From: a bacterium
Lineage (GTDB): Bacteria; CG2-30-53-67; CG2-30-70-394
Direction: 5' to 3'
Assembly (NCBI GenBank): GCA_024278555.1
Contig: JAJRSX010000107.1
Span: 1-7,437, forward strand
DNA length: 7,437 nucleotides
Part shown: piece after piece, positions 1 through 7,437 of the stretch
Layout: each line of letters begins with the position of its first letter
How positions within the stretch are numbered: the first letter of the stretch is position 1
Notes under the pieces: generated by a model
The model's database searches: none
What the model saw: only the letters and a program-made list of their open reading frames with translations
Told to the model about the DNA's origin: nothing
Program-made: the position numbers and the translations under genes

Positions 1-43
1 CACCCGGCCTCCACGGTGTTGACAGGGAGCGGCCTCCTCATGG

Positions 44-3996: not shown

Positions 3997-4317
3997 TCCC
4001 TGCGGGCGCCACGCCCCCCCTCGGCCATCACCAATCTCGAATTTTCGGGACCCAACACCCTCACGATCGGCACCACCCGTTACCCTTGCACCTCGCCTCC
4101 TCTCGACCCTCCAACCTCAACCCAGCGGTTACCGAACGAACCGCAAGCCTCGATTCCAGACCCGTGGCTAGCGGCTACCCGGGTAGGCGTTCCTGCCACA
4201 AGAGCACACGGCATCGCCACGCCACAACCCCGTGAGAACGCCGACGCAGGGGACGCAGAGGCAGACCATCGAACCGGCAGCCTCGGCTCCCGCGGACGGG
4301 TAGCAGATTTTGGGGTC

Positions 4318-4420
4318 GATTTTGGGGTCAGGTCTTTCATCGCCACATTTCTTGGATTTTGGGGTCACATCGCCACATTTCTTGGAGAAATGTGGCGATG
4401 AAAGACCTGACCCCAAAATC
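4318..4420. repeat. long perfect foldback (35-base inverted repeat, 33-base spacer)
   Basis: Positions 4318-4352 and 4386-4420 are exact reverse complements over 35 bases. The arms contain GGGGTCAGGTCTTTCATCGC and end in CCACATTTCT. The 33-base spacer (4353-4385) is mostly a direct repeat of the left arm lacking seven bases. As DNA it could extrude a cruciform, and as RNA it would form a very stable stem-loop. The right arm ends 14 bases before the extended -10 of the PIN toxin gene and would cover its -35 position. The arms carry the GGGGTCAGG core seen in inverse at 5663-5671 and in 7061-7208, which links this element to the other repeats. It could be a MITE-like element or the product of template switching. 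Confidence 0.85.
4319..4385 (+). repeat. tandem direct copies of the foldback arm, second copy with a 7-base deletion
   Basis: Positions 4319-4355 (37 bases) and 4356-4385 (30 bases) are the same sequence. The second copy lacks seven bases (one of GGTCTTT/GTCTTTC) between ATTTTGGGGTCA and ATCGCCACATTTCTTGG. A third partial unit, ATTTTGGGGTC, precedes them at 4307-4317. The local history therefore includes both direct duplication and inversion. Confidence 0.8.
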
Positions 4421-4434
4421 CGCGACAGCACATA

Positions 4435-4443
4435 TGCTATCAT
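4435..4443 (+). promoter_or_regulatory. extended -10 promoter, probably giving a leaderless toxin mRNA
   Basis: TGC-TATCAT is an extended -10 element (TGn followed by a hexamer matching TATAAT at five of six positions). Seven bases separate it from the ATG at 4451, so the expected transcription start is at or next to the A of the start codon. No Shine-Dalgarno sequence precedes that ATG, which supports leaderless translation. The -35 position would fall in the right arm of the foldback and does not resemble TTGACA. Confidence 0.5.
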
Positions 4444-4450
4444 CCTGCCC

Positions 4451-4870
4451 ATGGTCCTCGTCGTGGATACCAGTGTATTCATTTCCGCCTTGCTCGGGCC
4501 GCGTGGAGCATCTCGGTCGATTTTGCGTCATTGCCTCGAAGGTGGGCACTCTCCCTTGATGGGCACCTCCCTCTTTCTCGAATACCAGTCCGTACTTCAC
4601 AGACCTCCCCTGTTCAAACACTGCGCCTTGAATTCAGTCGAACGTGAGGAGCTACTAGACGCATTTCTCAGCGTGTGCCGATGGACAACGGTCTACTACA
4701 AGTGGCGCCCAAATCTATCCGATGATGACGACAACCATATTATCGAGTTGGCGATCGCAGGCGGTGCAGACTGCATCGTCACCAAAAACACAAAGGACTT
4801 CTCTCGGACGGAGCTTAACTTTCCCAACATTACGATCTTAAAACCAGAAGAGCTATTACGAATGGAGTAA
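4451..4870 (+). CDS. PIN-domain toxin of a toxin-antitoxin pair (COG1569-like)
   Basis: This 139-residue protein has the layout of a PIN-domain ribonuclease. The N-terminal strand VLVVDTSVF carries the first metal-binding aspartate (D6). An acidic residue lies in the second conserved region (E44 in LFLEYQSVL). The third is the acidic run LSDDDDNHIIELA (D91-D94), followed by GGADCIVTKNTKDF (D107, D116). This fits the family annotated as putative PIN-family toxin component (COG1569), presumably a magnesium-dependent endoribonuclease acting on cellular RNA. Its RNA target cannot be read from the sequence. The frame extends upstream to 4310, but that part only translates the foldback repeat, so I chose the ATG at 4451, just after the extended -10. 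The antitoxin gene follows four bases later, so the toxin is the first gene. Its base composition (about 47% GC in 4681-4740) is far lower than the fad genes, suggesting transfer. Confidence 0.85.
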   Translation: MVLVVDTSVFISALLGPRGASRSILRHCLEGGHSPLMGTSLFLEYQSVLHRPPLFKHCALNSVEREELLDAFLSVCRWTTVYYKWRPNLSDDDDNHIIELAIAGGADCIVTKNTKDFSRTELNFPNITILKPEELLRME

Positions 4871-4874
4871 CACC

Positions 4875-5105
4875 ATGGCAACCCTTACCATTCGCATGCC
4901 CGATGACAAGCACGAGCGCCTACGCCAGATGGCCAAGCAACGACACATCAGCTTGAACAAGCTCATGGAGGAACTATCAACCATGGCTATCACCCAATTC
5001 GACACTGAAGCCCACTTCCGAGCGCGAGCAGCGCGAGGGTCCGCAAAGCGAGGACTGGAGCTCCTCGACAAGCTCGACCACAGCAGCGGAGAATTACACG
5101 GCTGA
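4875..5105 (+). CDS. ribbon-helix-helix antitoxin (HicB/CopG-like)
   Basis: This small protein of 76 residues begins with MATLTIRMPDDKHERLRQMA, the beta-strand and first helix of a ribbon-helix-helix DNA-binding domain. It continues with KQRHISLNKLMEELS, the second helix. The C-terminal part (about residues 40-76) is charged, with FRARAARGSAKRGLELLDKLD, and probably wraps around and neutralises the PIN toxin. As a dimer it should also bind an operator and repress its own operon. The start at 4875 has GGAG (4864-4867) seven bases upstream, inside the end of the toxin gene. The four-base gap from the toxin stop indicates co-transcription and coupled translation. Proteins of this type are often annotated as HicB-family antitoxin, but no HicA is present and the partner is a PIN protein. 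Confidence 0.82.
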   Translation: MATLTIRMPDDKHERLRQMAKQRHISLNKLMEELSTMAITQFDTEAHFRARAARGSAKRGLELLDKLDHSSGELHG

Positions 5106-5384
5106 CTCTCCCCCTCCGCGTCTCCGCGCGAGATGCAGTTGCGGTTGCTCTCCTCCGTGTCCTCCGTGTCTCTGTGATGAATCGTGGTGGCAGTCCGCAG
5201 TCGCCGTTCCTTCACCCTCCGCTGTTCTTTGCGTCTTGGCGGCTTGGCGCGAGACCCCCGGCCATCAAGGCCCCCGCCCCACCCCGGCATCACCACCGGC
5301 GACGCAATTCCCCCAGTCTCCCCCTCATCCTGTAAATCCTGTTCATCCTGTCCAACAAGCAGTCCCGCAGTTCTTCGCCTCTTA

Positions 5385-5466
5385 GCGTCTTCGCGGTGAG
5401 AAGCTGTTGCGGTTGCAGCTCCCATCGTGTCCTTCGTGTGAAGGCTCGATCTCACCGCGAAGACGC
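5385..5466. repeat. inverted pair of GCGTCTTCGCGGTGAG repeats
   Basis: GCGTCTTCGCGGTGAG at 5385-5400 and its exact reverse complement at 5451-5466 form a 16-base inverted repeat. The next inner base also pairs, giving 17, with a spacer of about 48 bases. It arises from two copies of the dispersed CGCGAAGACGC-type repeat in opposite orientation. RNA crossing this region from either side could fold here, which might help separate the two convergent operons. Confidence 0.7.
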
Positions 5467-5601
5467 CAAGGGTTGTCCCGGGCAGCGGTGGCGAGGGTAG
5501 TCCCCCGGGCTCCGGTTGCCGCCGGGCAGGGGGGTGTCCACGAAGTCACACGAAGGGCGCGGTGCGCCTCCACAAAGGGCTTCTTCCACCCAGGCACCCC
5601 A

Positions 5602-5672
5602 GGGTCGGGCGGCGGAACGCATTGTTTTCAACGTGTTAGAGACAATCATGCAAGAGTGCAAGCCTGACCCCA
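5602..5672 (+). repeat. 71-base dispersed repeat ending in CCTGACCCC, copy 1
   Basis: This block aligns without gaps to 7139-7209 with 63 of 71 positions identical. It starts GGGTCGGGCGGCGG, contains TGTTTTCAA and GACAAT-ATGCAA, and ends TGCAAGCCTGACCCCA. The copies are directly oriented, 1537 bases apart, and enclose the second toxin-antitoxin module. Eight substitutions and no indels suggest an old duplication or two independent insertions of one family. The GGGGTCAGG core on the opposite strand matches the foldback arm at 4324-4332. Confidence 0.85.
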
Positions 5673-5691: not shown

Positions 5692-5715
5692 CATGAGCGA
5701 AGGGGATAGGCAGTT
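5692..5715 (+). repeat. 24-base dispersed repeat, copy 2
   Basis: This is the second copy of the block at 335-358, in the same orientation, with 23 of 24 positions identical. It lies 20 bases after the end of the 71-base repeat and 23 bases before the stop codon of the minus-strand PIN toxin. Confidence 0.6.
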
Positions 5716-5738: not shown

Positions 5739-6155
5739 TTACTGCTGCACCAGCACGGCGACAAGCTCCACGGGCGAATACACGGGAACGGAGGCACCAC
5801 GGAAGCCGGCGGCATCACGGGTGACAATCGCGTCCACCGCCACGTGGCGTGCCGCCTCATGGATCACCGCATCCTCGTAATCAGAAAAATGGAGCTCGAG
5901 CGCCGACTCCAGAACCCCTCGCGTGACAGGTGCCACATCGAACAAAGAGAGAAGCTTTGCGATCTCACCCTCCGACCGAGCCGCACCGACGACCTTCGTC
6001 GCCAAGTAGTGAATCGTGGTCACCGTCGTTGCGCAGATCCATCCACTCAGCGTGCCGCCTTCCACCCGTGAGAAAAGATCCACTGCCATCGCCGAAAACG
6101 GCTCACGATCCAACAACAGATCCAACACGACATTCGTGTCGAAAAGCACCTTCAC
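5739..6155 (-). CDS. VapC-like PIN-domain toxin (PIN_3 type)
   Basis: This 138-residue PIN-domain protein is the probable toxin of the second module, presumably a metal-dependent endoribonuclease. The N-terminus KVLFDTNVVLDLLLDREPF carries D6 in the DTNVVLD motif typical of the PIN_3 group. The middle region GWICATTVTTIHYLATK has threonines where other PIN families carry a glutamate, a pattern I associate with this group. The C-terminal acidic residues are in SDYEDAVIHEAA (D92, E94, D95) and VDAIVTRDAAGF (D108, D114). The start is a GTG at 6155 overlapping the antitoxin stop by three bases (GTGA). GAGGAG (6164-6169) lies eight bases upstream, which supports coupled translation after the antitoxin. 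It shows little similarity to the first PIN toxin beyond the shared fold, and its gene order is the reverse. RNA target unknown. Confidence 0.85.
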   Translation of the reverse strand: MKVLFDTNVVLDLLLDREPFSAMAVDLFSRVEGGTLSGWICATTVTTIHYLATKVVGAARSEGEIAKLLSLFDVAPVTRGVLESALELHFSDYEDAVIHEAARHVAVDAIVTRDAAGFRGASVPVYSPVELVAVLVQQ

Positions 6156-6394
6156 AAGTACTTCTCCTCGAGATGATCACGGTAGTCGCTCTCCTCGATT
6201 GAGGCGCCCTGCAACACGCCTCTCAACGAATGCACTACCGGTGTGACTCCCTCCCCCTCCGTCGTAGACATCCTGTTCAACAACACAAAGTAATCCGCGA
6301 CAATTCGTGACACGGACTTGCCCCGCTTCTCCGCATACGCTTTGGCCTGGCGGATCAAATCCTCATCGAGTCGGAGGGTGAGCTTCGTCTGCAT
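6152..6394 (-). CDS. VapB-like antitoxin (DUF6364-like ribbon-helix-helix protein)
   Basis: This 80-residue protein begins MQTKLTLRLDEDLIRQAKAY, followed by AEKRGKSVSRIVADYFVLL. The pattern is a beta-strand and two helices of a ribbon-helix-helix fold, close to the DUF6364 antitoxins that accompany PIN_3 toxins. The C-terminal half, with HSLRGVLQG and ending SDYRDHLEEKYL, is the likely toxin-binding tail. It should neutralise the downstream PIN toxin and repress the operon as a dimer. The ATG at 6394 is supported by AAGGAG (6401-6406) six bases upstream. The stop overlaps the toxin GTG. An inverted repeat 51-70 bases upstream of the start (6445-6464) is a candidate operator. Confidence 0.85.
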   Translation of the reverse strand: MQTKLTLRLDEDLIRQAKAYAEKRGKSVSRIVADYFVLLNRMSTTEGEGVTPVVHSLRGVLQGASIEESDYRDHLEEKYL

Positions 6395-6470: not shown

Positions 6471-7054
6471 TCGGCCAAGATCGGTCGCCGCTTTTGGTTG
6501 CGCAGGCCACATAGCGCTCAAACGACCCCCAACCCTGGCTCGAGCCCGCTTCGCCTCGCGACGATCGCCAAACTCCGAAAGGCCCCTAAGACCCAAGTGC
6601 TCTTGACGTACATCTCACACACAAACGTACGGCACCATCCCCTACCCGTCAACCCGCTTTTTCACGCCGAGCCACATCTAACAAACCACCGAACGGCCCA
6701 TCCTGGGTAGAACTGCATTCTCACGCAAACCCGCCAAGCCGCAAAGAATGGCACCGGGCAGGAGGGGGCCATGCCGCCGATCCCGGCCCGCAGGGCCCCT
6801 CCTTCACCCTTCCCAATTCACCCTTCGCCGTCCCCCTCCCCCACCCTGTCCACCAAATCAGAGATTTTCCTTCGCCCTCTTCGCGTCTTTGCGGTGAATG
6901 ACGGTGGCTGTTGAACGACAATCACGCTGGCCGGTCGGCGACCACGATGCCGTTGCCGTTAGCCCACCCCCGGCCTGACCGCCCCCTGCTCTTATCTACG
7001 TCCCGTCCCGCCTTCCAGGCCCTCGCCCCGAGCAACGCGGCAAGTTTACCTTCT
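6471..7054. other. gene-free region with dispersed repeats
   Basis: No credible gene is visible; frames are short and lack domains or ribosome binding sites. Positions 6721-6747 (CACGCAAACCCGCCAAGCCG) and 6868-6900 (TTCGCGTCTTTGCGGTGAA) are facing members of the dispersed CGCAAAGACGCGAAGG-type family, arranged like the pairs at 44-200 and 5385-5466. A pyrimidine-rich tract with TTCACCCTTCCCAATTCACC (about 6801-6825) lies between them. Confidence 0.55.
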
Positions 7055-7208
7055 TGCAAGCCTGACCCCATATTTTGACAAATGATAACAATGAGTTAGG
7101 TGATCTATTGCATGTTTGCAAGCCTGACCCCGGAGTTAGGGTCGGGCGGCGGCACGCAGTGTTTTCAAGCGGTTAGCGACAATAATGCAATAGTGCAAGC
7201 CTGACCCC
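7055..7208 (+). repeat. array of three TGCAAGCCTGACCCC motifs
   Basis: The exact 15-base motif TGCAAGCCTGACCCC occurs at 7055-7069, 7117-7131 and 7194-7208, in one orientation and spaced 62 and 77 bases apart. A fourth copy is at 5657-5671. The sequence before the second and third copies also shows looser similarity (GTTAG, then ATGCA or TTGCAT). The third copy is the end of the 71-base repeat. The spacing is irregular and the spacers are unlike CRISPR spacers. Confidence 0.8.
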
Positions 7209-7209
7209 A
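7139..7209 (+). repeat. 71-base dispersed repeat ending in CCTGACCCC, copy 2
   Basis: This is the partner of 5602-5672 (63 of 71 identical, ungapped, same orientation). It ends about three bases before recognisable transposase coding sequence begins, so its end coincides with a break in the neighbouring mobile element. Confidence 0.85.
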
Positions 7210-7212
7210 TTC

Positions 7213-7437
7213 CTTCCGAGCTTCGCCTTCGTCGCCGAACCCCAGACCAACGGCGTCGCCGAGCGGTTCAACCGCACCCTGAAGGAACAGGTCGTCCACG
7301 GACGGACCTACCACACCGTCCACGAGCTCCGGAAGGCCGTCACGGCGTTCGCTCAGACCTACAACACTCAGTGGCGCCTCGAAAAGCTCGACTACCTCAC
7401 TCCCTGCGAGGCGCGGCAACTCCATGACTCACAGGCG
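7213..7437 (+). pseudogene. 3' fragment of a DDE (IS3-like, rve_3) transposase, 5' truncated
   Basis: From about 7213 the plus strand encodes 75 in-frame residues matching the C-terminal part of an integrase-core transposase. It reads SFAFVAEPQTNGVAERFNR, then TLKEQVVHGRTYHTVHELRK, and AFAQTYNTQWRLEKLDYLTP. The glutamate in NGVAERFNR is the third catalytic acidic residue of the DDE triad. The earlier aspartates and the N-terminal part are absent. The frame opens directly from the 71-base repeat, with a stop upstream at 7183-7185 and no start codon or ribosome binding site. No stop codon is reached before the window ends, so the 3' end may be intact outside. It cannot be an active transposase alone. 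IS481 or a related family is also possible. Confidence 0.75.

Follow-up and report, generated by a model that had tools for sequence, protein, structure and literature searches.

TIRtron/TIRYT elements are characterized by an HUH/Y1 transposase with a C-terminal HTH and by terminal inverted repeats (TIRs) containing GGGGWSAS, a motif given there for the TIRs of TIRYT/TnpAY1 subclass 2.1 (PMC3733652, PMC6006769). The TIRs are also reported to occur at dispersed positions, singly, as dimers or in clusters (Di Nocera et al. 2013, PMC3733652; Quentin et al. 2018, PMC6006769). REP/REPIN sequences and their RAYTs form another described system (PMC2817692, PMC3116915), which the repeat analyzed here resembles in consisting of short intergenic palindromes dependent on a related tyrosine transposase. 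Template switching, which homogenises the arms of inverted repeats, is a known mutational process (PMC8794818, PMC7202029).

Here, a perfect foldback located upstream of a PIN-domain toxin gene was analyzed in a stretch of 7,437 nt (the window), which is the whole of contig C77 of a 3.06 Mb draft genome of 211 contigs (G000, hereafter the own genome). The foldback is a known kind of repeat, a TIRYT-derived TIR-TIR arrangement, real but non-specific. It shares with TIRtron/TIRYT elements the Y1 transposase with C-terminal HTH, the GGGGWSAS TIRs and the dispersed TIR copies. Features not found in the parts of those descriptions (PMC3733652, PMC6006769) available to us are near-perfect arms at each locus with mirrored flanks, so that the palindrome runs into the flank, and sequence-anchored stub ladders composed of flank plus GGGGTCA.

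RESULTS

A perfect foldback with a truncated outer copy

The two arms of the foldback are complementary at 35 of 35 positions and enclose a spacer of 33 nt (Table 1). An earlier note, made from the letters of this DNA, had described a perfect 35-base inverted repeat and considered it rare by chance, and both statements held: single-stranded DNA of positions 4305-4425 folds with -44 kcal/mol, compared with -14 ± 2.5 kcal/mol in shuffles (z = -11.9), and 100 Markov shuffles of the window contained no perfect inverted repeat of at least 14 nt within 150 nt. Its reading of the spacer as a direct but shortened repeat of the left arm was also borne out, the copy consisting of GATTTTGGGGTCA fused to CATCGCCACATTTCTTG, without GGTCTTT. 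What had been missed is the outer stub (GATTTTGGGGTC), a truncated direct copy blunt-joined to the outer side of the left arm, together with the repetition of the structure at multiple loci and the presence of related repeat ends elsewhere in the window.

Table 1. Foldback and neighbouring genes in the window
Feature	Position	Strand	Remarks
Truncated stub	4306-4317	+	Flank GATTTT plus first 6 nt of the TIR (GGGGTC); 12-nt unit, microhomology 0
Left arm	4318-4352	+	Flank GATTTT (4318-4323) plus TIR GGGGTCAGGTCTTTCATCGCCACATTTCT; TIR type common to TIRYT elements
Spacer	4353-4385	+	Includes a direct copy of the left arm with an internal deletion (GATTTTGGGGTCA/CATCGCCACATTTCTTG)
Right arm	4386-4420	-	Exact reverse complement of the left arm, inverted 6-nt flank AAAATC included
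PIN-domain toxin gene	4451-4870	+	PIN_3, 139 aa, intact; neighbour only, outside the element
Ribbon-helix-helix antitoxin-like gene	4875-5105	+	FitA-like_RHH / RHH_1, just below gathering cut-offs; neighbour only

The foldback is one copy of a dispersed intergenic repeat

A BLAST search of the own genome with positions 4300-4440 gave 42 matches. The exact core GGGGTCAGGTCTT was found 47 times, versus 0 for its reversed control, with copies spread over about 19 intergenic sites and many of them in the form of hairpins. Every copy examined was located between genes according to a codon-usage gene scan. Neighbours assigned with Pfam included gyrase A (gyrA), Omp85/POTRA (BamA-like), peptide deformylase, PrmA, a sigma-70 factor, histidine kinase, HD domain, polysaccharide deacetylase, UDP-GlcNAc epimerase and Usp, and no toxin-antitoxin pair was present among the tested neighbours of other copies. 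The earlier note had asked for a genome-wide search and had itself named recurrence at many unrelated loci as an argument against a toxin-specific role; since a common intergenic repeat beside unrelated genes is what the search revealed, such a role is contradicted.

No exact foldback was detected in genomes of other species, and the foldback DNA had no match to plasmids. A degenerate TIR search retrieved 30 contig stretches; almost all of them belong to metagenome-assembled genomes, with proteobacterial and acidobacterial ones among the groups represented. A literature search with the letters of the core returned unrelated sequence matches only. An empty site was sought in a congener (G001) and none was found; this genome is too diverged, with about 68% in the best match, and lacks the PIN gene.

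TIRYT elements of the same genome carry matching ends

The own genome contains four Y1_Tnp (PF01797) genes. In the 916-bp TIRYT element of contig C27, GGGGTCAGGTCTTGCCTTGCCACATTTCC lies upstream, with the ATG 17 nt on, and ATGTGGCAAGACAAGACCTGACCC overlaps the stop codon. The element of C185 (996 bp) has its own variant of the GGGGTCAGGTCTT end, and that of C170 (1026 bp) has a related end type, GCAAGCCTGACCCC. Ends of the C27 and C185 elements are of the GGGGTCAGGTCTT type, with inner TIR sequence unlike the window copy at a few positions; an exact TTTCATCGCCACATTT end was found on none of the full TIRYTs of this assembly, the closest differing at a few positions.

The TIRYT proteins (282 and 312 aa) matched Y1_Tnp with E-values of 2e-14 and 6e-12, and with the NCBI REP_Tyr_transpos model one scored above the cut-off and the other just below. 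The C27 protein contains DNHYH, LFQGRYKS and YVVLNP, so that the NHYH, FQ and Y..LNP traits of subclass 2.1 are present. A C-terminal HTH was weakly matched as HTH_38 at residues 250-282 (E 2.5e-4, below the Pfam gathering score), and GGGGWSAS is met in both arms of the foldback as GGGGTCAG. Taken together, the protein motifs, the C-terminal HTH and the GGGGWSAS of the TIR fit TIRYT/TnpAY1 subclass 2.1. On sequence grounds, the core GGGGTCAGGTCTT is identified as the TIR of a TIRYT element; such elements are related to REP-associated tyrosine transposases and are flanked by TIRs.

Elements of the IS200/IS605 type (subclass 1.1) encode a TnpA of about 150 aa with a Y---Q motif and have subterminal hairpins. 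Assignment to this subclass was rejected, the proteins found here having 282 and 312 aa and Y---NP, with E 0.006 for NF033573, far below the cut-off.

Adjoining the C27 element is an internally deleted copy, about 120 nt in length, in which the gene is reduced to its two ends, with its first and last codons preserved. With this intermediate the foldbacks recall MITEs, internal-deletion derivatives of insertion sequences that are likewise short, non-coding, multicopy and TIR-flanked. No direct target-site duplication was recognised at the foldbacks, whose flanks are inverted rather than direct copies, and in contrast to MITEs their interior is almost wholly lost. HUH elements usually lack target-site duplications. 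A non-autonomous mobile element was among the possibilities raised in the earlier note, and it is the one that the same-genome copies, the full TIRYTs with matching ends and the internally deleted intermediate favour. We assign a probability of about 0.86 to the foldback being a non-autonomous TIRYT derivative whose TIRs stand head to head with almost no interior.

Further repeats were observed. The Y1_Tnp gene on C70 of the own genome is flanked by a third hairpin type, AAAAGGGGACAGGACCCTTTTTCTT, and this locus has the appearance of a further autonomous element bounded by ends of its own. In the window, a second TIRYT end type (TGCAAG..CCTGACCCC) is located at 5601-5672 and 7138-7209, and also at 7047-7072 and 7109-7134; it has 27 related matches in the genome, many of them forming hairpins whose loops measure about 27 nt, with unlike flanks CTCT / AATT. 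The C170-type end GCAAGCCTGACCCC occurs at 5649, 7047, 7109 and 7186. Positions 7195-7437 hold the 3' fragment of an rve-type (rve_3) transposase gene that runs off the contig end and is joined to a TIRYT-type repeat. Another dispersed repeat (..CATGAGCAAAGGGGATAGGCAGTT..), at 300-380 and 5692-5715, has 27 genome matches, seven other copies being at least 94% identical over about 80 nt. Inverted or dispersed intergenic repeats resembling TTAGCGTCTTCGCGGTGAGA and TCCGTGTCCTCCGTGTCT are found at 5381-5401 / 5450-5470, 45-71 / 5145-5171 and 5225-5254 / 6719-6748, with similar stretches in spacers of other contigs of the own genome.

Arms match within loci and flanks are often mirrored

Arm matching was assessed in 13 tight foldbacks of the own genome, over 27 inner arm columns and the outer 10 flank columns. 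Although many columns vary between loci, 349 of 351 inner arm cells were paired. Observed matches amounted to 450, against a maximum of 404 when left arms were paired with right arms of other loci; in the 10 outer flank columns 101 matches were observed, and shuffles reached no more than 84. The 13 loci being related, this shuffle comparison does not represent an independent-sample test. Full elements, whose ends are about 1 kb apart, were less well matched (26/30, 21/24 and 20/24) and had unlike flanks.

Symmetric flanks of 5-18 nt were seen at most family-1 foldbacks of the own genome, and hairpins of other genomes showed flank symmetry over no more than 3 nt. Flanks in the own genome's second TIR family were mostly unlike (CTCT / AATT), indicating that symmetrisation does not occur throughout. 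Symmetric flanks could also have arisen by insertion into a palindrome that was already present.

We infer that the near-perfect arms result from hairpin-templated recopying favoured by the closeness of the arms, or from inverted duplication of one end. The former resembles the correction of quasipalindromes by template switching, in which nearby arms become identical and palindromes grow (PMC7202029, PMC8794818); it differs from the published cases in that it would act here on mobile-element ends. The latter, a sub-variant within the TIRYT origin, would consist of a single template-switch event duplicating one TIRYT end with its flank. The identity of the arms, flanks included, and their common end type (ATTT/GGGG) speak for it, full elements having by contrast unlike ends and flanks. 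However, the deleted TIRYT copy on C27 and long-loop copies on C145 and C30 resemble left-right joins, and two different flanks are retained at C145. Duplication of a single end is a conceivable route, although we lean against it.

Stub ladders adjoin the TIRs

Exact tandem copies of the local flank and TIR start were found outside many TIRs. The own genome has 50 occurrences of the pattern GGGGTCA-(4..34)-GGGGTCAGG and the congener has 25; the reversed control gave 0 in each. Stub boundaries were examined in 44 first-in-chain stubs from many taxa. Blunt junctions ended exactly after GGGGTCA in 16 of 22 cases and after GGGGTCAG in 4, and 15 of the 44 stubs started with CA versus 0.079 expected per position (p ~7e-7), a boundary rule spotted and counted on the same data. 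Microhomology-mediated slippage was rejected as the cause of the stubs, microhomology at the junctions being at the level of chance and 20/34 (own genome) and 21/41 (other genomes) being blunt. Stubs were also found beside TIRYT genes on complete plasmids of Legionella adelaidensis (NZ_LR134433), Skermanella rosea (pSR-1) and Pseudoalteromonas (pTHAF3_a), in the last case at the right end. Separately, on C64 of the own genome (~985) a hairpin of the second family has on its outer side four perfect tandem copies of CCTGACCCCAATT, a 13-nt unit made up of end plus flank.

Instead of reflecting random slippage of a polymerase, stub ladders might be a footprint of the TIRYT itself, an HUH nuclease, a proposal that we put forward tentatively and with more doubt than confidence. 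According to such a model, the TIRYT would nick, or halt synthesis, both directly after the GGGGWSA recognition motif and a few bases beyond the end, in many cases before CA, and the outcome would be tandem addition of flank plus GGGGTCA.

Creation of the inverted repeat and the stubs by chimeric read-through during library preparation or assembly is very improbable. The genome is a 211-contig draft in which the ends of some contigs (C90, C106, C94) coincide with copies, but mirrored flanks extend over just 5-18 nt with no long read-through, arms and flanks vary from locus to locus, and stub ladders recur in unrelated assemblies. Because they adjoin TIRYT genes on the complete plasmids of the three genera above, an artefact is unlikely as the source of the repeat family in general, and less securely so for this single contig.

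The PIN toxin locus

The foldback ends 30 bp before the ATG of the toxin gene. In this gap, the extended -10 postulated in the earlier note is visible by eye as TGCTATCAT at about 4435-4443, but does not form part of a sigma-70 promoter that passes a consensus scan (0 found in 4200-4900, 0.5 expected). No intrinsic terminator above threshold was detected near the foldback, the window had no match to Rfam families, and a search for close relatives of the PIN toxin locus found none, the best showing 38% identity.

The earlier note had also envisaged that the structure might act on the toxin promoter as a cruciform or form a structured RNA. A hairpin at this position would overlie any -35, and the -10-like sequence lies between it and the gene. 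Nevertheless, foldbacks of the same type stand beside many unrelated genes, neither a promoter above threshold nor an Rfam match was found, and the search for close relatives of the toxin locus, where conservation of the foldback might have been seen, yielded none. A toxin-specific regulatory cruciform or RNA hairpin is accordingly judged highly unlikely. The insertion upstream of the toxin start is most likely the chance landing of one copy; an effect on toxin expression is possible but unsupported.

A second PIN_3 toxin gene with a DUF6364 antitoxin-like partner is located at 5739-6155 and 6152-6394 on the minus strand, about 0.6 kb from the first pair, which places two PIN modules within 2 kb.

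DISCUSSION

A classical REP/REPIN repeat mobilised by a RAYT would equally be an intergenic palindrome linked with a REP_Tyr_transpos-type protein, but there is hardly any room for this reading, since the palindrome mostly has TT/GGGGTCAGG at its foot and at no locus GTAG/GTGG, the arms derive from long TIRs (about 28 nt), and the TIR start GGGGTCAG fits the GGGGWSAS of TIRYTs (PMC3733652, PMC6006769).

For the foldback as a non-autonomous TIRYT derivative, the following course can be proposed. A full TIRYT would undergo internal deletion, through an intermediate of the C27 type that keeps both gene ends, to yield a bare TIR pair, and copies would be spread by a TIRYT, an HUH single-strand transposase, acting in trans. 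Once the two ends are close, hairpin-directed template switching during replication may, at about even odds, re-copy one arm from the other. Repeated re-copying would keep the arms perfect and let the palindrome grow a few bases into the host flank. The stub ladder would represent a second, sequence-anchored process at the same TIR ends.

TIRYTs are widespread and, to our knowledge, their reaction and cleavage sites have been little studied; we know of no mapping of the latter. The toxin-promoter cruciform, tempting but unsupported, gives way to a testable case. Stub ladders may record the action of the TIRYT transposase or of the replication machinery on the ends and, if the footprint model is true, would make TIRYT cleavage sites readable from genomes. 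Precise predictions for nicking assays and for palindrome template switching follow from the fixed boundary of the stubs and the near-perfect coevolution of the arms, which also offer a route to active TIRYT elements from sequence alone.
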